Below are positions 13,836-22,622 of a stretch of DNA of 64,000 nucleotides, one piece after another. This DNA comes from Blastococcus capsensis. Its GTDB lineage: Bacteria > Actinomycetota > Actinomycetes > Mycobacteriales > Geodermatophilaceae. Location: the NCBI RefSeq assembly GCF_030165005.1, contig NZ_JASNNW010000025.1:1-64000 (forward strand), in the 5' to 3' direction. The notes under the pieces are model-generated. The model saw only the letters and a list, made by a program, of their open reading frames with translations. It did not search any database and was not told the origin of the DNA. A program made the position numbers and the translations under genes. Each line of letters starts with the position of its first letter. Position 1 is the first letter of the stretch.

Positions 13836-16034
13836 ATGACCGTGCCGCTGCCCACTTCCATGCCATCCGCGCCGTCGGCGGATCCGCGTCCGGAGCCGCC
13901 GGGGCAGGACCACGGCCTCTCCGGGCTCCAGGGCTTCCTCCGCCCGCGGGGCATCGCACTGCTGGGCATCTCCGGCCGCTCGGAAAACCTCATGGCCCGG
14001 CCGCTGCGCTACCTGGTCGAGCACGGCTACACCGGCGGCATCTACCCGGTGAACCCGAACTACGAGGAGCTGGTCGGGCAGCGGTGCTACCCGGCGCTGG
14101 CCGACGTGCCCGGGCCGGTCGACCTGGTGCTCGTGCTGGTCGCCGCCGACCGGGTCGAGGACGCCATCCGGCAGGCGGCCGCGGCCGGGGCGTCGGCCGC
14201 CGTCGTCTACGCCTCCGGCTTCGCCGAGGTGGGGCCCGAGGGGCTGGCCCTGCAGCAGCGCCTGGCGGCGGTGGCCCGGGAGACCGGCGTCCGAGTGCTC
14301 GGCCCCAACTGCCAGGGCTTCCTGTACGCGCCGACCGGCGTGGTCGCCACGTTCACCGCGGCGGCCGACCGGCCGCTCACCTCCGACAGCGGCGTGGCCT
14401 ACGTCGGGCAGAGCGGCGCCGTCGGTGGCTCGGTGCTCGACCTGGCCACCGACATGGGCCTGGGCCTGTCGTTCTGGGCCAGCACCGGAAACCAGGCCGA
14501 CCTGGACCTGGTCGCGGTCTCGCAGGAGCTCCTGGAGGACCCGGCCATCCGGGTCCTCATGCTCTACGTGGAGGCCACCGACGACGGGCAGGCCTACGCC
14601 TCGCTCGCCCGCCGGGCGCGCGAGACGGGCAAGCAGCTCGTGGTGCTCCGCTCGGGCCGCTCCAGCGCCGGACGGCGCGCGGTGGCCAGCCACACCGGCT
14701 CCATGCTGGGTGACGACGTCGCCTTCGTGCTCACGTCCGAGGAGCACGGCGTGGTGCTGGTCCACGACATCGACGAGCTGCTGTCGGTGGCCGCGCTGCT
14801 GTCCACCGGCAAGCGGTCGGAGGGGCGGCGGGTCGCCGTCGTCACCACCTCGGGCGGGGCCGGCAGCCTCGCGGCCGACCAGTGCGAGGACCTCGGCCTG
14901 GAGATGCCCGAGCTCTCCGCCGACACCCAGGACCGGCTGCGCCCGCTCATCCCGGCGTTCGGCGCGCTGGCCAACCCGGTCGACGTCACCGCCCAGCTGT
15001 TCAACCGGGGTGCGCACGCGTTCGGCGATGTCTGCCGGATCGTCGCCGACGACCCCTCGGTCGACGCGATCGCGGTCTTCGTGACGATGGTGGTCGGCGA
15101 CGCCGGCGCGCGGCTGGCCGAGGACCTCGTGGCGACGGCGGCCAAGCTGCCGGTACCGCTGCTGGTGGGCTGGATCGCCGGCCAGGAGCTGACCACCGAG
15201 GGCCGGCGGGTGTTCCGCGAGGCGGGCATCCCGGTCTTCGGCTCGGTCGGCGACGTCGCCCGCGCCGCCGCGCGCATGGCCGCACCGGCGCACCGGGGCA
15301 CCGCGCCGGCCCTGCCACCGTCGCCCGAAGTGCCGGCCGCCCGGGTCCGCGAGCTGCTCGGCGCCGATGCCGTCGACGGACCGGAGCTGCTGCGCGCGAT
15401 CGGCATCGCCCAGCCGTCCTCGACGCTCGTCACCACACCGGAGGCCGCGCGCGACGCGGTCGCGGCGCTCCCGGGGCCGGGCGTGCTCAAGCTCGCCGCC
15501 GGCGATCTGGCGCACAAGAGCGAGGTCGGCGGCGTGCGGGTCGGCGTGGCGGCCGAGGAGGCGGCGGCGGTCTTCACCGAGCTGGTCGACGCCGCCCGCC
15601 GGCACCACGTGCCCGACGTGGAGGGCGTGCTGGTGCAGGAGCTCATCCCGCCGGGCACCGAGCTGATCCTCGCCGCGACCGCCGGCCGGGACGGCTTCCC
15701 GCCGGTGATCACCGTCGGCCTCGGCGGGGTCACCACGGAGCTGTACCGCGATCTCGCCTCCGGGCTGGCCCCGGTGAGCCCCGAGCGCGCCTGGTCGATG
15801 CTGCGTGGCCTTCGCGCGTGGCCGCTGCTCGCCGGCTTCCGCGGCGCCCCACCGGCCGACGTCGCGGCTGCCGTCGACGCGGTGGTGCGGCTGTCGCAGG
15901 CCGCCGTCGCCGGTGGCGAGCGGCTCGCGGAGTTCGAGGTCAACCCCCTGATCGTCGGGGCGCGGGGCGGTGGGGCGACCGCCGTCGACGTGCTGGTACG
16001 CACCACCGGGCACCGCGCCCCGCTCGGCGAATAG
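13836..16034 (+). CDS. NDP-forming acyl-CoA synthetase (CoA-binding/ATP-grasp fusion)
   Basis: 732 aa. Activates a carboxylic acid to its CoA thioester, or runs in reverse to make ATP. Domains in order are a CoA-binding Rossmann domain (residues about 30-160, LGISGRSENLMARPLRY, GPNCQGF), a succinyl-CoA ligase-like flavodoxin domain (about 170-460; SHTGSM precedes the expected phospho-His region) and an ATP-grasp domain (about 500-725; PGVLKLAAGDLAHKSEVGG). The ATG at 13836 follows CGGAGG. It opens the operon that ends in the selenoprotein locus and probably activates its substrate. Confidence 0.9.
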   Translation: MTVPLPTSMPSAPSADPRPEPPGQDHGLSGLQGFLRPRGIALLGISGRSENLMARPLRYLVEHGYTGGIYPVNPNYEELVGQRCYPALADVPGPVDLVLVLVAADRVEDAIRQAAAAGASAAVVYASGFAEVGPEGLALQQRLAAVARETGVRVLGPNCQGFLYAPTGVVATFTAAADRPLTSDSGVAYVGQSGAVGGSVLDLATDMGLGLSFWASTGNQADLDLVAVSQELLEDPAIRVLMLYVEATDDGQAYASLARRARETGKQLVVLRSGRSSAGRRAVASHTGSMLGDDVAFVLTSEEHGVVLVHDIDELLSVAALLSTGKRSEGRRVAVVTTSGGAGSLAADQCEDLGLEMPELSADTQDRLRPLIPAFGALANPVDVTAQLFNRGAHAFGDVCRIVADDPSVDAIAVFVTMVVGDAGARLAEDLVATAAKLPVPLLVGWIAGQELTTEGRRVFREAGIPVFGSVGDVARAAARMAAPAHRGTAPALPPSPEVPAARVRELLGADAVDGPELLRAIGIAQPSSTLVTTPEAARDAVAALPGPGVLKLAAGDLAHKSEVGGVRVGVAAEEAAAVFTELVDAARRHHVPDVEGVLVQELIPPGTELILAATAGRDGFPPVITVGLGGVTTELYRDLASGLAPVSPERAWSMLRGLRAWPLLAGFRGAPPADVAAAVDAVVRLSQAAVAGGERLAEFEVNPLIVGARGGGATAVDVLVRTTGHRAPLGE

Positions 16035-16066: not shown

Positions 16067-16804
16067 GTGGGACAGGTACACCTGGAGAAGCAGGGCGGCG
16101 TCGCCGTCCTAACCGTCGACAACGTCGAGGTGAAGAACGGGCTGACGCCCGAGATGGGGATGCAGCTGTCGGAGCTGTGCGACGACATCGACGGCGACCC
16201 GGCCATCGGTGCCGCCGTCGTGTTGGGCAAGGGGGGCACGTTCTGCTCCGGTGCCGACCGCCGACGCTGGACGGCGGGCTCGGACCAGGCCGAGGACAAG
16301 ACCTACAAGGAACTCGGCGCGGTCTACCAGGCGTTCAAGCGGGTCGGGACGCTGCAGGTGCCGACGATCGCCGCCGTCCGCGGCGCCGCCGTGGGCGCCG
16401 GCATCAACCTGGCGCTCGCCACCGACCTGCGGATCGTCTCCGAGACGGCCCGGCTGATGGCCGGCTTCCTCCGCATCGGTCTGCACCCCGGCGGCGGCTA
16501 CTTCACGATCAGCTCCCGGACGGCCGGCCGCGAGGCGACTGCCGCGATGGGGCTGTTCAGCGAGGAGATCGACGGGGTGCGCGCCGCGGAGATCGGCCTG
16601 GCCTGGAAGGCCGTGCCGGACGACCAGGTCGAGGACCTGGCGCTGGAGCTGGCCGGGCGCGCGGCCAAGGACCCGGAGCTCGCCCGCGAGGCCGCCCGCT
16701 CCTTCCGCACCGAGGCCGGCCCCCCCGGGATCGGCTGGGAGGCCGCGCTGCACTTCGAGCGGGCCACCCAGATGTGGTCGCAGCGGCGGCGCGAGACTGC
16801 CTGA
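16067..16804 (+). CDS. Enoyl-CoA hydratase/isomerase family protein
   Basis: 245 aa crotonase-fold protein. The frame is open far upstream within the synthetase gene; GTG at 16067 is chosen because the family N-terminus (GQVHLEKQGGVAVLTVDN) begins there and an AGAGAGGCAGGA stretch precedes it. Visible motifs are GGTFCSGADRRRW and RGAAVGAGINLALATDLRI. The residues at the usual catalytic Glu positions (Gly-Ala-Gly-Ile-Asn, then RIGLHPGGGYF) do not follow the canonical hydratase pattern, so it may be an isomerase, hydrolase or another crotonase type. Confidence 0.85.
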   Translation: MGQVHLEKQGGVAVLTVDNVEVKNGLTPEMGMQLSELCDDIDGDPAIGAAVVLGKGGTFCSGADRRRWTAGSDQAEDKTYKELGAVYQAFKRVGTLQVPTIAAVRGAAVGAGINLALATDLRIVSETARLMAGFLRIGLHPGGGYFTISSRTAGREATAAMGLFSEEIDGVRAAEIGLAWKAVPDDQVEDLALELAGRAAKDPELAREAARSFRTEAGPPGIGWEAALHFERATQMWSQRRRETA

Positions 16805-16869: not shown

Positions 16870-18009
16870 ATGCAGTTCGGCGCCACCACGCTCAGCCCCG
16901 CCGAGGAGTCGTTGCGCGCCGAGGTGCGCGAGTTCCTGGCCGAGCAGCTGCCCCCGGACCACCGCCCCGCGCTGGGGTTCGCCGGTCGGCACGACCCCGG
17001 GTTCTCCCGCACGCTCGCCGCCCGCGGCTGGGTGGGCATGGCGCTCCCGCCCGAGTACGGCGGCCACGGCCGCAGCGCGGTGGAGCGGTTCATCGTGGCC
17101 GAGGAGTTGCTGTCCGCCGGGGCCCCGATCGGCGCGCACTTCGTCGCCGACCGGCAGACCGGGCCGGCCCTGCTGCACTACGGCACCGAGGAGCAGCGGC
17201 GCCGGTTCCTGCCCGGCATCGCGGCCGGCGAGATCTACTTCTCCCTCGGCATGAGCGAGCCCGACTCCGGCTCCGACCTCGCCTCGGTGCGCACCCGCGC
17301 GACGAAGGTCGACGGCGGCTGGACGGTCACGGGCACCAAGGTGTGGACCAGCGAGGCGCACCGCAACCACTTCTTCGCGGTGCTGTGCCGGACCTCGCCG
17401 ATGGAGGAGGGGCGCAAGCACGCCGGGCTGTCCCAGCTCATCGTCGACCTGCAGGCCCCGGGGGTGCGGATCTCGCCGATCCCGTTCCTGGACGGCTCGC
17501 ACCACTTCAACGAGGTCGCGCTCGAGGACGTCTTCGTGCCCGACGACATGGTGCTCGGCGAGGTCGGCTCGGGCTGGCGGCAGGTGACCAGCGAGCTGGC
17601 CTACGAGCGCAGCGGCCCCGACCGGTGGCTGTCGACGTTCCCGGTGCTGCGGGCGTTCGTCCGCGAGCACGCCGGCCCGGCGGTCGCCGACGACGAGGCG
17701 ACGGTGATCGGGCGGTTCGCCGCCCGCTTCTGGGCGATCCGGCAGCTGTCGCTGTCGGTGGCGCGCGCCCTGGACGCCGGGGAGGCGCCGGCGGTCGAGG
17801 CAGCGCTGGTCAAGGAGGTGGGCACCCGGTTCGAGCAGGACCTGGTCGAGGCGCTGCGGGTGGCCGCCGAGACCGAGGTGGACCAGGGCACCGGCACGCT
17901 GTTCCAGCAGCTGCTGGCCGAGGCGGTGCTCACCTCGCCGAAGGTCACCCTGCAGGGCGGGACGACGGAGATCCTGCGGTCGGTGGCCGCGAAGGGGTTG
18001 GGCTCGTGA
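16870..18009 (+). CDS. Acyl-CoA dehydrogenase, subunit 1 (second copy of the pair)
   Basis: 379 aa, closely similar along its whole length to the protein at 5527 (shared FVADRQTGPALLHYGTEEQ, FSLGMSEPDSGSDLASVR and LDGSHHFNEV). The ATG at 16870 has GGAGGAGG about 7 nt upstream. The C-terminal GGTTEILRSVAAKGLG again has Gly at the usual Glu site. It is linked to its partner by a GTGA overlap. In this copy the pair is followed directly by the flavoprotein-UGSC selenoprotein gene rather than by a hydratase. Confidence 0.92.
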   Translation: MQFGATTLSPAEESLRAEVREFLAEQLPPDHRPALGFAGRHDPGFSRTLAARGWVGMALPPEYGGHGRSAVERFIVAEELLSAGAPIGAHFVADRQTGPALLHYGTEEQRRRFLPGIAAGEIYFSLGMSEPDSGSDLASVRTRATKVDGGWTVTGTKVWTSEAHRNHFFAVLCRTSPMEEGRKHAGLSQLIVDLQAPGVRISPIPFLDGSHHFNEVALEDVFVPDDMVLGEVGSGWRQVTSELAYERSGPDRWLSTFPVLRAFVREHAGPAVADDEATVIGRFAARFWAIRQLSLSVARALDAGEAPAVEAALVKEVGTRFEQDLVEALRVAAETEVDQGTGTLFQQLLAEAVLTSPKVTLQGGTTEILRSVAAKGLGS

Positions 18010-19088
18010 GCGAGGACCGGACCATGCTGACCGAGGTCGCCACCGGCGTCTTCCGCGATCTGTGCACCCCCGAGGACGTGGTCGCCGCCGAGACCTCCGG
18101 CTGGAGCGACCGGCTGTGGGCGGCGCTGGGGTCCTCGGGCTTCCCGTACGTATCGGTGCCCGAGGAGGCCGGCGGCTCGGGCGGCGACGTCGCGGACGCC
18201 TGCGCTCTCCTGGCCGTGGCCGGCCGGTTCGCCGCGCCGGTGCCGCTGGCCGAGGCCGGGCTGCTCGGCGGCTGGCTGCTGGCGGCGGCGGGGCTGGAGC
18301 TGCCGGTGGACGGGCCGCTGACCGCCTCGGCCGGCCGGCCCGACGACGTGGTGGAGCTCTCCGGCGGCCCGGGCGCATGGCGGCTGACCGCGCGGGTGCA
18401 CCGCGTGCCGTGGGGCGGCCGCAGCGCGCGGGTGGCGCTGCTGGCGCCGGCCGGCGGGAGGGCCTGCGTGGTCTCGGCGCCGACCGCCGCGGCGCGGGTG
18501 ACCCCGGGCCGCAACCTCGCCGCGGAGCCGCGGGACGCCCTGGCATGGGACGACGTCCCGCTGGCCGACGAGACCGTCGCTTCCGCACCGGCGGGCGTGG
18601 ACGACGATGCGCTGCGGCTGCGCGGCGCGCTGGGCCGGGCGGCGCTGATCTCCGGCGCGCTGGCCCGGGTGAGCGAGCTGACGTTGCGCTACACCGGCGA
18701 GCGGGAGCAGTTCGGCCGGCCGATCGCCCGCTTCCAGGCGGTGCAGGCGCACCTGGTGACGATCGCCGAGGAGGCCCAGCTGGCCGGCCTGGCGGTCGAG
18801 GTGGCGGCGCGCAACGCGCGGCCGGAGCCGGGGTTCTTCGACGTCGCGTCGGCCAAGGCGGTGGCCGGCGAGGCGGCGACCGTGGCAGCCCGGGCCTCGC
18901 ACCAGGCGCACGGCGCCATCGGCATGACCAAGGAGTACGAGCTCGGCCAGCTGACCCGGCGGCTCTGGTCGTGGCGGGACGAGTTCGGCAGCGAGCGGTA
19001 TTGGAACCGGGTACTCGGGCGGCGCCTGGCCGACGCCGGCGCCGACGAGCTGTGGCCGCGGATCTCGACGGGGCTGGTGAACGCATGA
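18006..19088 (+). CDS. Acyl-CoA dehydrogenase, subunit 2 (second copy of the pair)
   Basis: 360 aa paralogue of the protein at 6660, with the shared C-terminal half (RYTGEREQFGRPIARFQAVQ and HGAIGMTKEYELGQL). GTG at 18006 overlaps the upstream TGA. The stop overlaps the ATG of the flavoprotein-UGSC gene at 19085, so translation of the selenoprotein is coupled to this dehydrogenase. That supports a shared pathway or electron-transfer link. Confidence 0.92.
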   Translation: MSEDRTMLTEVATGVFRDLCTPEDVVAAETSGWSDRLWAALGSSGFPYVSVPEEAGGSGGDVADACALLAVAGRFAAPVPLAEAGLLGGWLLAAAGLELPVDGPLTASAGRPDDVVELSGGPGAWRLTARVHRVPWGGRSARVALLAPAGGRACVVSAPTAAARVTPGRNLAAEPRDALAWDDVPLADETVASAPAGVDDDALRLRGALGRAALISGALARVSELTLRYTGEREQFGRPIARFQAVQAHLVTIAEEAQLAGLAVEVAARNARPEPGFFDVASAKAVAGEAATVAARASHQAHGAIGMTKEYELGQLTRRLWSWRDEFGSERYWNRVLGRRLADAGADELWPRISTGLVNA

Positions 19089-20533
19089 ACAGCGACTGGG
19101 ACCTGGCCGTCGTAGGTGCCGGCGTGGCGGGCCTGACCGCCGCGCGGGTGGCGGCCGAGGCGGGGCTGCGGGTGGTGGCCTACGACCGGATGACCCCGGG
19201 CGGGCAACTGGTGAATCTCACCACGCTGCACGACGTGCCGGAGCCGGGCGAGGTCACGTCCTCGGCCGGGCTGCTGGGCCGGCTGGTGGCCGAGGCCGAG
19301 GCGGCCGGGGTGACGATGTCCTTCGCCGAGGTCACCCGGGTGCGTGCCGGTGCCGCGCCGCGGCTGGAGACCTCCGAGGGGGAGGTCGGCGCCCGCGCGG
19401 TGGTGGTGGCGACCGGGTTGACCGCCGGGCGGCTGGGGCTGCCGGGCGAGGAGCTGCTCGTCGGCCGGGGGATCTCCACCTGCGCGGGCTGCGACGGGCC
19501 GCTGTTCCGCGGGCGGGCGGTGGCGGTCGTCGGCGACGACGACTGGACCGCCGAGGAGGCGCTGGAGCTGGCCGAGGTCGCCACCGCGGTCACCGTGCTG
19601 GTGCCCGGGCAGCCGCGCTGGTCGGGGGAGCGGGTCGGGCGGCTGGCTGCGTCGGCCCGCGTCGAGGTGCTGACCGGGGCGACGGTGACGGCCCTGCGCG
19701 GCGAGGGCGTGCTGTCCGGCGTCGTCGTCGCCACGGCCGGGAGCGAGCGGGAACTGGCCGTCGACGGGCTGTTCCCCTACGTCGGACGGCGGGGGCCGGG
19801 CGCCCTGGTCGACGGGCTGCCCACGGACGAGGCGGGCCGGCTGCGCACCGAGGGCGGCGTGCGCACCGCCGTCCCCACGGTCTTCGTGGCCGGTGACGCC
19901 CGTTCCGCGGCGACCGGGTCGGTGCCGTCGGCGGGAGCCGACGGCGAGGCCGCCGGTGCGGCGGCGGTGGCGATGCTGCGCCCGGCGGGGGGCCCCGGCC
20001 TCCGGATCGTGGACCCGACCTTCGGTGTCCAGCCGGCCGACTCCGCGGCGGAGGCGCAGGCCGGGGGGACGGCGGACTGGTCGGAGGTGGCGCTGTTCTC
20101 GAATTCGAAGCCGAACGCCACGGAGCTGTTGCGCGGGGTGGGGGAGCGGCTGCAGGAGCACTGGGAGCTGCCCGAGCTCGGTTTCGCCAGCAAGCCCAAC
20201 GCCTCCGCGGCTGCCGACAAGGACGTCATCGACTGGCTGTCGCAGCGTTACAAGATGGTGCTCGTGGCGGTCGGTGACTAGGGCTCGTGCTCGTCGTGGA
20301 GTCTCCACGACTCGGTGGAACTGGAGAAGCGTGGCGCCGTGGCACCGCTGCTGGTGACCTCGACGTTCCTGCCGCTGGTGGAGGCGCAGGCGAAGGCCCG
20401 GCGGGTGACGCCGCGGATCGTCGTCGTGCCGCACCCGGTCGGTGGGCTGAACGAGGCAGAGCTGGCCGAGCGGATCGAGGCCGCGGCCGGTGCGCTGCTG
20501 CCGCTGGCCGACGAGGCGCGGGGTAGCGCATGA
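19085..20533 (+). CDS. Thioredoxin-reductase-like flavoprotein fused to a UGSC-family domain; predicted UAG-encoded selenoprotein
   Basis: 482 aa if the in-frame TAG at 20279-20281 is read as an amino acid (residue 399). Residues 1-320 are a TrxR-type FAD domain: VVGAGVAG near 9-16, a redox-active CAGC at 133-136 and a C-terminal FAD motif VFVAGDA. The second nucleotide motif is VVGDDDWTAEEA instead of GxGxxA, and no HRR-type NADPH site is seen, so the electron donor may not be NADPH. Residues about 330-482 are a UGSC-family domain: VALFSNSKPNATELL, FASKPNAS, then VAVGD-[TAG]-GSCSSWSLHD and VVVPHPVGGL. The TAG sits exactly at the selenocysteine position of UGSC. Frame, similarity and the ATGA overlap with 20530 all continue past it. 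The alternative is an inactive or truncated gene. Confidence 0.88.
20279..20281 (+). other. In-frame TAG, predicted selenocysteine codon
   Basis: TAG occupies the first position of the family-defining U/C-G-S-C motif: the codons after it are GGC TCG TGC. In known members this position is UGA-encoded selenocysteine or cysteine. Conversion from TGA or TGC to TAG needs two base changes, which makes a simple sequencing error unlikely. TAG also ends at least seven ordinary genes in this window, so local signals must mark this one. Confidence 0.85.
20293..20311 (+). promoter_or_regulatory. Predicted bacterial SECIS hairpin
   Basis: The mRNA 3' of the TAG contains a perfect 7-bp stem, GTCGTGG (20293-20299) with CCACGAC (20305-20311), closed by the loop AGTCT (20300-20304). 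The helix begins exactly 11 nt after the TAG. Known bacterial SECIS elements, such as that of E. coli fdhF, have a short helix at about this distance with GU in the apical loop (GGUCU); here the loop is AGUCU. Such a hairpin recruits SelB carrying Sec-tRNA. The fit is by inspection only. Confidence 0.8.
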
Positions 20534-21564
20534 CGGACACGGAGGTGATCGAGCTCCCCGGCGTCACCGAGGAGACCTGGCACGAGGTCGCCTGGGAGCG
20601 CGGCTGGGGTGACGGGCTGCCGACGGTGCCGCCCACGCCGGCGCGGGTGGCGGCGGCGTTGACGGCGCTCGAGGGCATCGACCTGGAGTTGGGTCCGGTG
20701 CCGCCTTCCGGGCTGGTGCCGACCCGGGAGAGCTTCGCGGCGAACGCGGTGATGGCCGGGTGCCGCCCGGCGGACCTGCCGGTGGTGCTGGCGGCGGTGC
20801 GGGCGATGCTCGCGCCGGAGTACAACCTGCACGGCGTGCTGGCGACGACGCACCCGTGCGCGCCGCTGGTGGTCGTCGGGGGGCCGGTGCGGACTGCGGT
20901 CGGTCTCAACTCCGGCGGCAACTGCTTCGGGCAGGGCACGCGGGCCAACGCCGTCATCGGCCGGGCGGTGCAGCTGGTCACCACGCACATCGGGGGCGCG
21001 CGGCCGGGGTCGATGGACCGGTCGACGCAGGGCACCCCGGCGAAGTACTCGTGGTGCTTCGGCGAGAACGAGGAGGAGAGCCCCTTCGAGCCGTTCTCGG
21101 TGCGCCGCGGGTTCGCGCCGGGGGAGTCGATGGTGACGGTGGCGGCCTGCGAAGGGCCGCACAACATCAACGACCACGGGTCGACGACGGGTCTGGGCCT
21201 GCTCATGACGATCGCCGGCACGATGACCGACGCGGGGTCCAACAACGTGTACGTCAAGGGCCCGCACTTCCTGGTGCTGGGCCCGGAGCACGCGGCGACG
21301 CTGCACCGCGACGGGTGGACGGTCGACGCGATCCGCGACTGGCTGTGGGAGCGGGCGCGGATGCCGGTGTCGCAGTTCTCCGAGGAGAACCGCCGGCAGT
21401 TCGAGGACTGGGGAGTGAAGCCCGACGGCGACATGTACACGGTGAGCACCGGGCCGGAGATGCTGCACGTCCTGGTGGCCGGCGGGGCCGGGAAGCACTC
21501 GGCGTGGATCCCGTCGTTCGGCGCGACGGCGGCGGTGTCGCGCCCGGTGCCGGTCGCGCGGTGA
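20530..21564 (+). CDS. Uncharacterised protein next to the UGSC selenoprotein, paralogue A
   Basis: 344 aa, no function recognised. It begins at an ATG overlapping the TGA of the UGSC gene and ends in a GTGA overlap with its paralogue. Shared with paralogue B are GDGLP-VPPT-ARV at the N-terminus, a central stretch with S-GG and GT-RAN-A-IGRAV, D--T-G-PAKY-WC and a C-terminal glycine-rich VAGGAGKH. Cysteines lie in AGCRPAD, HPCAPL, NCFGQG, SWCFGEN and ACEGPH. No signal peptide or membrane helix is evident, so it is probably cytoplasmic. Position suggests a partner, substrate enzyme or electron acceptor of the selenoprotein. Confidence 0.85.
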   Translation: MTDTEVIELPGVTEETWHEVAWERGWGDGLPTVPPTPARVAAALTALEGIDLELGPVPPSGLVPTRESFAANAVMAGCRPADLPVVLAAVRAMLAPEYNLHGVLATTHPCAPLVVVGGPVRTAVGLNSGGNCFGQGTRANAVIGRAVQLVTTHIGGARPGSMDRSTQGTPAKYSWCFGENEEESPFEPFSVRRGFAPGESMVTVAACEGPHNINDHGSTTGLGLLMTIAGTMTDAGSNNVYVKGPHFLVLGPEHAATLHRDGWTVDAIRDWLWERARMPVSQFSEENRRQFEDWGVKPDGDMYTVSTGPEMLHVLVAGGAGKHSAWIPSFGATAAVSRPVPVAR

Positions 21565-22622
21565 CCTCGCCGGACCTGCCGCTGGTCGCCGACGACGCCG
21601 ACCCGGCCGCGGTGCTGGCCGACCTGCTGGCGGGCGGGCACGGGGACGGGCTGCCGGTGGTGCCGCCGACCGCGGCCCGGGTGGAGGCGATGCTGGCCGG
21701 GGTTGCGGCGCCCGACGAGGAGTTCGGTCTGGTGCCGCCGCTGTTCGGGGCGCTCAGCGTGCGGGCGGTGGCCTGGTACGCGGTGCTGGCCGGCTGCCGG
21801 GTCGACGAGCTGCCGGTGGTGATCGCCGCCTGCCGGGCGGCGCTGGCGGACTCGTTCAACCTGCTGGGGATCTCGACGACGACCGGTGCGCCGGCGGTGG
21901 CGGTGCTGGTGCACGGGCCGGGGGCGCGCCGGCTGGGCATGACGTCGGGTGCGGGCGGGCTCGGGACGGGGAACCGGGCGAACGCCTGCATCGGTCGGGC
22001 GGTGTCGATGGCGCTGGCGGGGATCGGGGGCGCGACCGCGGGGCTCACCGACATGGCGACGATCGGCCAGCCGGCGAAGTACACCTGCTGCACGGCGGAG
22101 AGTTCGCGCCCGCTGCCGTCGCTGGCCCAGCGCCGCGGGCTCGGGGTGGACGTCGACGCGGTGACGGTGATCGGGGTCGGTGCCACTGTGGAGGTGCTGC
22201 CGGGGGAGGGCTACCGGGAGCCACCGTCGGTGCTGGGGCCGGCCGCGGCGGCGATGGCCGGGATGGTGCTCGCCATGGGGGATCCGGCGCGCGGCGCCCT
22301 CGGGGAGCAGTTCCTGCTGCTGCCGCCGGAGCCGGCGGAGCTGCTGGCGATGCACGGGTGGGGTTACGAGCGGATCGCGGAGTTCCTGTTCGAGCAGGGC
22401 ACTGCGCTGCTGCAGGGCGCGGCGGCGTCGCTGGCCTTCCGGGCGGGGGTGCCGGCGTATGCGGCCTCGGGGCTGGCGGTGGCGGGGTCGCCGGCCGACG
22501 TGCACGTCGTCGTCACCGGGGGAGCAGGGGTGAAGATGCTCCTGCTGCCGACCTGGATGGGCGGGTCCCGATCGGTGACCGCGCCGGTGCTGCCGCTGGA
22601 ACCGGTTTCCCGGGCGGGTTGA
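21561..22622 (+). CDS. Uncharacterised protein next to the UGSC selenoprotein, paralogue B
   Basis: 353 aa, unknown function and clearly homologous to the preceding protein. The frame is open well upstream; GTG at 21561 is chosen because it overlaps the previous stop and places GDGLPVVPPTAARV at the matching N-terminal position. It conserves TSGAGGLGTGNRANACIGRAV and QPAKYTCCTAE, with a CC pair where paralogue A has WC. The two may form a heterodimer. The gene is the last of the run that starts at 13836. Confidence 0.85.
   Translation: MTSPDLPLVADDADPAAVLADLLAGGHGDGLPVVPPTAARVEAMLAGVAAPDEEFGLVPPLFGALSVRAVAWYAVLAGCRVDELPVVIAACRAALADSFNLLGISTTTGAPAVAVLVHGPGARRLGMTSGAGGLGTGNRANACIGRAVSMALAGIGGATAGLTDMATIGQPAKYTCCTAESSRPLPSLAQRRGLGVDVDAVTVIGVGATVEVLPGEGYREPPSVLGPAAAAMAGMVLAMGDPARGALGEQFLLLPPEPAELLAMHGWGYERIAEFLFEQGTALLQGAAASLAFRAGVPAYAASGLAVAGSPADVHVVVTGGAGVKMLLLPTWMGGSRSVTAPVLPLEPVSRAG

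Follow-up and report, generated by a model that had tools for sequence, protein, structure and literature searches.

The window analysed here, a stretch of 64,000 nucleotides from Blastococcus capsensis, carries a gene in which a thioredoxin-reductase-like domain is followed by a UGSC domain. The frame (19085-20533) consists of 398 codons, a TAG as codon 399 (20279-20281), the codons for Gly-Ser-Cys and a final TGA. Between the TAG and the TGA lie 83 codons in all, Gly-Ser-Cys included, and the TGA overlaps the start of the next gene, at 20530. The presence of a single in-frame TAG within the UGSC domain was confirmed, and the figures of the preliminary description, a product of 482 residues with selenocysteine (Sec) as residue 399, were found to be right on re-reading the frame. 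The genes and features of the locus are as follows.

13836..16034, forward strand: acyl-CoA/succinyl-CoA ligase-type protein, whose gene opens the conserved neighbourhood and has an ordinary TAG stop
16067..16804, forward strand: gene of the enoyl-CoA hydratase family
16870..18009, forward strand: acyl-CoA dehydrogenase-like gene 1, named by sequence reading and by its neighbour
18024..19088, forward strand: acyl-CoA dehydrogenase family gene 2, assigned by scanning the frame 17343-19085 against protein families, with a stop codon overlapping the fusion gene's start
19085..20533, forward strand: thioredoxin-reductase-like/UGSC fusion gene, 482 residues with the TAG read, final stop within the coordinates
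19100..19942, forward strand: FAD-dependent reductase domain (Pyr_redox_2, residues 6-286) with a CAGC motif and a degenerate second nucleotide-binding stretch
20006..20494, forward strand: UGSC domain (PF24696, fusion residues 308-470), a Pfam profile match
20279..20281, forward strand: in-frame TAG, codon 399, the proposed selenocysteine codon
20293..20311, forward strand: SECIS-like hairpin, an 8-bp stem (20293-20300 with 20304-20311) and the loop GTC (20301-20303), from structure prediction and pairing counts
20530..21564, forward strand: partner protein 1, without a Pfam or NCBIfam match, adjoining UGSC in related loci
21564..22622, forward strand: partner protein 2, a paralogue of partner 1 (37%), start codon provisional

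On the read-through protein the UGSC profile PF24696 scores 121 bits against a cut-off of 25, and the U/C-G-S-C motif is present. The profile spans the TAG, with positions 2-92 upstream and 94-165 downstream of it, and the two halves score 47.1 and 52.8 bits when taken separately. The NCBIfam UGSC equivalog NF041046 gives 107.4 bits, below its curated cut-off of 125. Residues 1-295 align over their whole length with solved thioredoxin reductases and retain the CxxC; the thioredoxin reductase model TIGR01292 scores 188 bits against a cut-off of 343.45, and this part is therefore named thioredoxin-reductase-like only. The GGGDSA and HRR stretches of thioredoxin reductases have a role in NADPH binding. 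The corresponding stretches of the fusion read GDDDWT and PGQPRW. The reductase retains its CAGC, but this stretch, the second nucleotide-binding one, is degenerate throughout the 11 fusion genes (that of the window and those of ten relatives), and the sequences therefore suggest that the electron donor may be other than NADPH.

The same codon was compared in 33 loci from named genomes, found by a search that was seeded with the fusion protein and is hence biased to its relatives; a weak unrelated second match in one locus (L025) was left out of the comparison. The nearest named relative is B. xanthinilyticus, at 90% identity. It was found that the aligned codon is TAG in all ten Geodermatophilaceae loci (Blastococcus, Modestobacter and Geodermatophilus) and TGA in the remaining 23, all of them outside the family and labelled Alpha-, Beta- and Deltaproteobacteria, Chloroflexi/Dehalococcoidia, SAR324 and other actinobacteria. 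Thus the alignment at residue 399, which had been proposed as a check, places TAG or TGA in one and the same column. Across 112 Geodermatophilaceae genomes PF24696 gave 95 matches in 54 genomes, of which 72 have exactly one TAG, 23 are stop-free and none has a TGA or TAA.

An ordinary stop would give a 398-residue protein with a decaying remainder, or the TAG could be a sequencing error. TAG is indeed a real stop elsewhere, both in the first gene of the neighbourhood and in a second UGSC gene of this genome, and as it ends other host genes, RF1-type termination must exist. Against such a reading, the recurrence of the TAG in ten out of ten related loci rules out an error of a single assembly, and truncation before the invariant second Cys would cost the UGSC domain its motif. 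Random stops and loss of the C-terminal domain, the signs that would have spoken for decay, are absent from the ten close relatives; apart from the shared TAG, the 11 fusion genes have no stop before their end. In the 75 codons 3' of the TAG, dN is below dS in all ten comparisons (ratio 0.13-0.68), and in the +1 and +2 frames of the same codons dN exceeds dS in 17 of 20, a substitution pattern which indicates that the frame downstream of the TAG is under purifying selection. Together with a tRNA-Sec of matching anticodon in the host genome, described below, this makes termination or error at the TAG extremely improbable. As a separate observation, dS is 0.10-0.32 over the 75 codons after the TAG (20282-20506) against 0.30-0.94 over the 60 before it. 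The lower value downstream holds in all ten comparisons, and the stretch is longer than the hairpin alone accounts for.

The host assembly (4.39 Mb, 51 contigs, completeness 99.95) contains one strong tRNA-Sec, at C48:129165-129256, which scores full-length as tRNA-Sec with 65.3 bits; five other matches of the tRNA-Sec search are Ser, Tyr and Leu tRNAs according to ARAGORN. The anticodon is CUA. The tRNA gene is followed, 32 bp 3', by selA (415.4 bits) and then by selB (274.6 bits), and selD (388.6 bits) lies divergently upstream, all three over their cut-offs. Both the CUA tRNA-Sec and the set of selA, selB and selD that the preliminary description had asked for are thus present, and its reading of the TAG as Sec finds support in them as well as in the TAG/TGA column of the relatives. 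Stop usage in the window is 22 TGA, 6 TAG and 2 TAA for 30 frames chosen by a composition rule, a rough count in which one or more of the frames coincide in part with a real gene of the opposite strand.

A further alternative is that the UAG is read as another residue, either pyrrolysine or, under selenium shortage, serine or cysteine carried by the tRNA-Sec. ARAGORN labels the CUA tRNA as tRNA-Pyl, by its anticodon. The best score for a pyrrolysyl-tRNA synthetase (PylS) in the host genome is only 22.7 bits against a cut-off of 178.15, and the tRNA itself scores along its full length as tRNA-Sec. As to cysteine, 23 of the 95 UGSC matches of the family are stop-free and the ten that were read at the motif have Cys, so that Cys is tolerated in related proteins. 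Nevertheless, complete selA and selD genes adjoin the CUA tRNA, and outside the family the aligned codon is the UGA of a known selenoprotein family. Insertion of another residue is accordingly judged highly improbable.

Five additional host genes have one TAG at redox-motif or formate dehydrogenase (FDH) Sec positions. One is the second UGSC gene (L105, on C49), with a single TAG and an NF041046 score of 146.7 bits, over the cut-off of 125. Two encode formate dehydrogenases with the TAG in NQARI-U-HS, a position which we take to be the FDH Sec site. The remaining two are an AhpC/TSA and deiodinase-like protein with the TAG in FGSGT-U-P and an AhpC/TSA-like protein with it in GDW-U-PYC; among the ten AhpC/TSA matches of this genome, two have one TAG and none has a TGA. 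It may be added that the second UGSC gene (L105:1495-2013) has TAG in two roles: at 1768-1770 it is the proposed Sec codon, and at 2011-2013 it ends the gene. In the family-wide FDH search, at least 45 of the matches listed with a stop have one TAG and at least one has a TGA. That TGA, in a genome with tRNA-Sec(CUA) (G079), was considered as a UGA-Sec codon and rejected: the match opens with this stop, at a point where the gene has no Sec region and shifts frame, so it was not counted as a Sec codon. The gene concerned (L225, G079:C12) is a formate dehydrogenase that has lost the Sec region and the frame, through a deletion or a misassembly.

A census of the anticodon was made across the family. 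tRNA-Sec was found in 108 of the 112 Geodermatophilaceae genomes, as 110 genes, and when these were read singly 102 had the anticodon CUA and eight UCA. CUA was read in 101 genomes, which belong to nine genera; only UCA was read in seven genomes, from three genera (g5, g6 and g7), namely G066, G068, G069, G070, G072, G073 and G074, of 190-550 contigs each; and one genome, G058, has both. As three genera keep UCA, the change from UCA to CUA may have taken place inside Geodermatophilaceae. A search of the seven UCA-only genomes for a UGA-Sec gene among the FDH, UGSC, AhpC/TSA and AhpD-like families found none: there was no FDH match among the matches listed, the three UGSC matches (in two genomes) and the AhpC/TSA matches had no stop, and neither had the AhpD-like matches among those listed. 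The UGA side of the codon-anticodon match is therefore shown only by genomes outside the family. Of 397 genomes sampled from the order, 63 matched an exact CUA pattern, 62 in Geodermatophilaceae and one elsewhere (G230); the pattern missed 13 Geodermatophilaceae genomes in which CUA had been read singly, and 63 is thus a lower bound. The match elsewhere (G230:C194:781-833) lies in a metagenome-assembled genome of another family and is nearly identical to the tRNA-Sec(CUA) of Geodermatophilaceae, for which contamination, transfer or misplacement are the options.

The predicted hairpin provides another line of evidence. Counting the codon as positions 1-3, its stem begins at position 15, 11 nt past the TAG, and its GTC loop occupies positions 23-25. 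The E. coli SECIS comprises nucleotides 15-31, 11 nt from the UGA, with fixed sites U17, G23 and U24, according to PMC8659212. The fusion hairpin matches this register and the apical-loop G23 and U24 but lacks the bulged U17; position 17 is U in both FDH hairpins of the host genome, as read by eye. Of eight possible pairs, TAG sites have a mean of 7.78 (9 distinct of 29; 8 of the 9 fully paired), TGA sites 7.50 (22 distinct of 25; 14 of the 22 fully paired) and Cys homologues 4.56 (9 distinct of 10, from 13 loci tried of which three had no motif match; none fully paired). With one side of the stem slid by 1-3 bases the means become 1.3-4.1 pairs for the two Sec groups and 2.3-5.0 for the Cys homologues, and synonymous resampling reaches eight pairs in 1.3% of cases for the window and 2.6% for the second UGSC gene. 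One TAG site (L088) misfits the register. It should be noted here that the register was picked on these same sequences, that the rows are related and that the stem also encodes conserved residues; moreover, the Cys controls belong to more distant UGSC subgroups, and part of the pairing gap may thus be divergence. On the relatives' codons, the hairpin counts, the PylS score and the excess of dS over dN, an ordinary stop, a pseudogene, a sequencing error and pyrrolysine were all rejected.

The reading that we prefer, with a probability of about 0.95 on the sequence evidence, is that Sec is inserted at residue 399 to give a selenoprotein of 482 residues. From the codon, the tRNA, the sel genes, the hairpin, conservation and the neighbourhood, all studied in silico, we infer selenium insertion, competition with release factor 1, an electron path and a substrate as follows. 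SelA and SelD would make Sec-tRNA-Sec on the tRNA with anticodon CUA, and SelB would deliver it to the ribosome at the UAG of the fusion gene, because a SECIS hairpin starts 11 nt past that codon. Insertion of Sec399 would compete with release factor 1 to yield the 482-residue protein, and UAG codons that have no SECIS would still terminate genes. Electrons could then pass from FAD to CAGC, on to the Sec399/Cys402 pair and finally to the substrate, the FAD/CAGC domain reducing the Sec399/Cys402 pair of the UGSC domain fused to it. The UGSC domain and the two partners may act together on a putative substrate of an acyl-CoA-linked pathway.

The neighbourhood bears on this last step. The order of ligase, hydratase, two dehydrogenases, fusion, partner 1 and partner 2 is kept in nine of ten Geodermatophilaceae loci, the sole exception (L030) being without matches to the two acyl-CoA dehydrogenases. 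A partner match lies near a UGSC match in every one of the 33 named loci and, among 30 further ones (L080-L109), in 29; the exception, L090, is near a contig end. The two paralogous partner genes (20530-22622) adjoin UGSC genes across several bacterial phyla. Neither partner matches a Pfam or NCBIfam family. In the second UGSC locus of the host the partner domain is preceded by an N-terminal segment that matches a thioredoxin-like family below threshold (20.5 bits against a cut-off of 27). The predicted model of the partner (pLDDT 91.3) gave no fold match among solved structures at E<=0.001, and the UGSC model (pLDDT 87.7) gave loose matches, chiefly to flavodoxin-like domains (lowest E 6e-5, TM near 0.5); by sequence, no significant hit to a solved structure was returned for either the UGSC domain or the partner. 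The predicted flavodoxin-like fold differs from the Trx-like fold suggested in 2008 (PMC2398784).

G058 deserves separate consideration. Its contig C17 (69 kb) has a G+C content of 0.61-0.68 over roughly its first 6 kb and mostly of 0.70-0.79 beyond; the lower-G+C part holds IS-type genes and matches. Here lie tRNA-Sec(UCA), at 1173-1263, and, 315 bp away and divergent, an AhpD-like gene of the CMD family at 1579-2157 (L189:1173-2157). This gene has an in-frame TGA at codon 98, in CFY-U, in a column that is Cys, the invariant redox cysteine, in five of five aligned homologues. It is the only AhpD-like match with a stop among the matches listed for 73 genomes. A 7-bp hairpin with the loop GTT follows the TGA. 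The same genome has one SelB over cut-off, and its genes for UGSC and FDH proteins contain TAG. It could be, as a tentative reading somewhat short of even odds, that G058 uses two Sec codons, UAG with tRNA-Sec(CUA) and UGA with the second tRNA-Sec(UCA), one SelB serving both. Misassembly at the island is possible; a 3-kb segment taken mid-contig from C17 has matches in each of the 25 other congeneric genomes searched, which makes the contig host-like. Searches for the tRNA-Sec(UCA) in phages and for the AhpD-like protein in viral contigs found no match. The tRNA has 78-83% matches on two actinobacterial plasmids, on which formate dehydrogenase genes adjoin complete selD-selA-selB sets and the AhpD cassette is absent.

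Much of this has precedent. PMC5330540 reports three tRNA-Sec(CUA) in Geodermatophilaceae, which bears out the mention of such actinobacterial tRNAs in the preliminary description; it credits UAG in FDH and UGSC-motif selenoproteins to Mukai et al. 2016 and adds AhpC. Recoding for Sec at UAG, UAA and sense codons has been reviewed (PMC10778597). UAG-Sec decoding via tRNA-Sec(CUA) in Geodermatophilaceae, UGSC proteins included, is thus already published, and what is described here, with the same family, anticodon and codon, is not a separate system. As the code variant has been described in the family, the fusion gene is a well-supported further case of it and the phenomenon is not new. Compared with canonical Sec insertion in E. 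coli, tRNA-Sec, SelA, SelB and SelD are in common and UAG replaces UGA. UGSC-containing selenoproteins with UGA are known (PMC2398784), and the fusion shares their domain and Sec-Gly-Ser-Cys motif but has UAG as its codon; in seven loci outside the family where both parts are adjacent, reductase and UGSC are separate neighbouring genes divided by stops, whereas here they are fused. The present study adds the fusion, its acyl-CoA neighbourhood, the partner family, the census of 112 genomes, the UCA genera and G058. By title and abstract, in mostly open-access literature that did not include the text of Mukai et al. 2016, neither a fusion with UAG nor a natural genome with two Sec codons was recognised.

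If the reading of G058 is true, specificity would lie in the tRNA and the SECIS and not in the codon, and this genome would be a natural test of codon dependence in selenocysteine decoding. Annotation pipelines that treat UAG as a stop would truncate proteins of this kind. With the gene described here a redox fusion enzyme probably joins the proteins of the natural UAG-selenocysteine code, and the partner family together with the acyl-CoA neighbourhood may offer a handle on the role of UGSC proteins.
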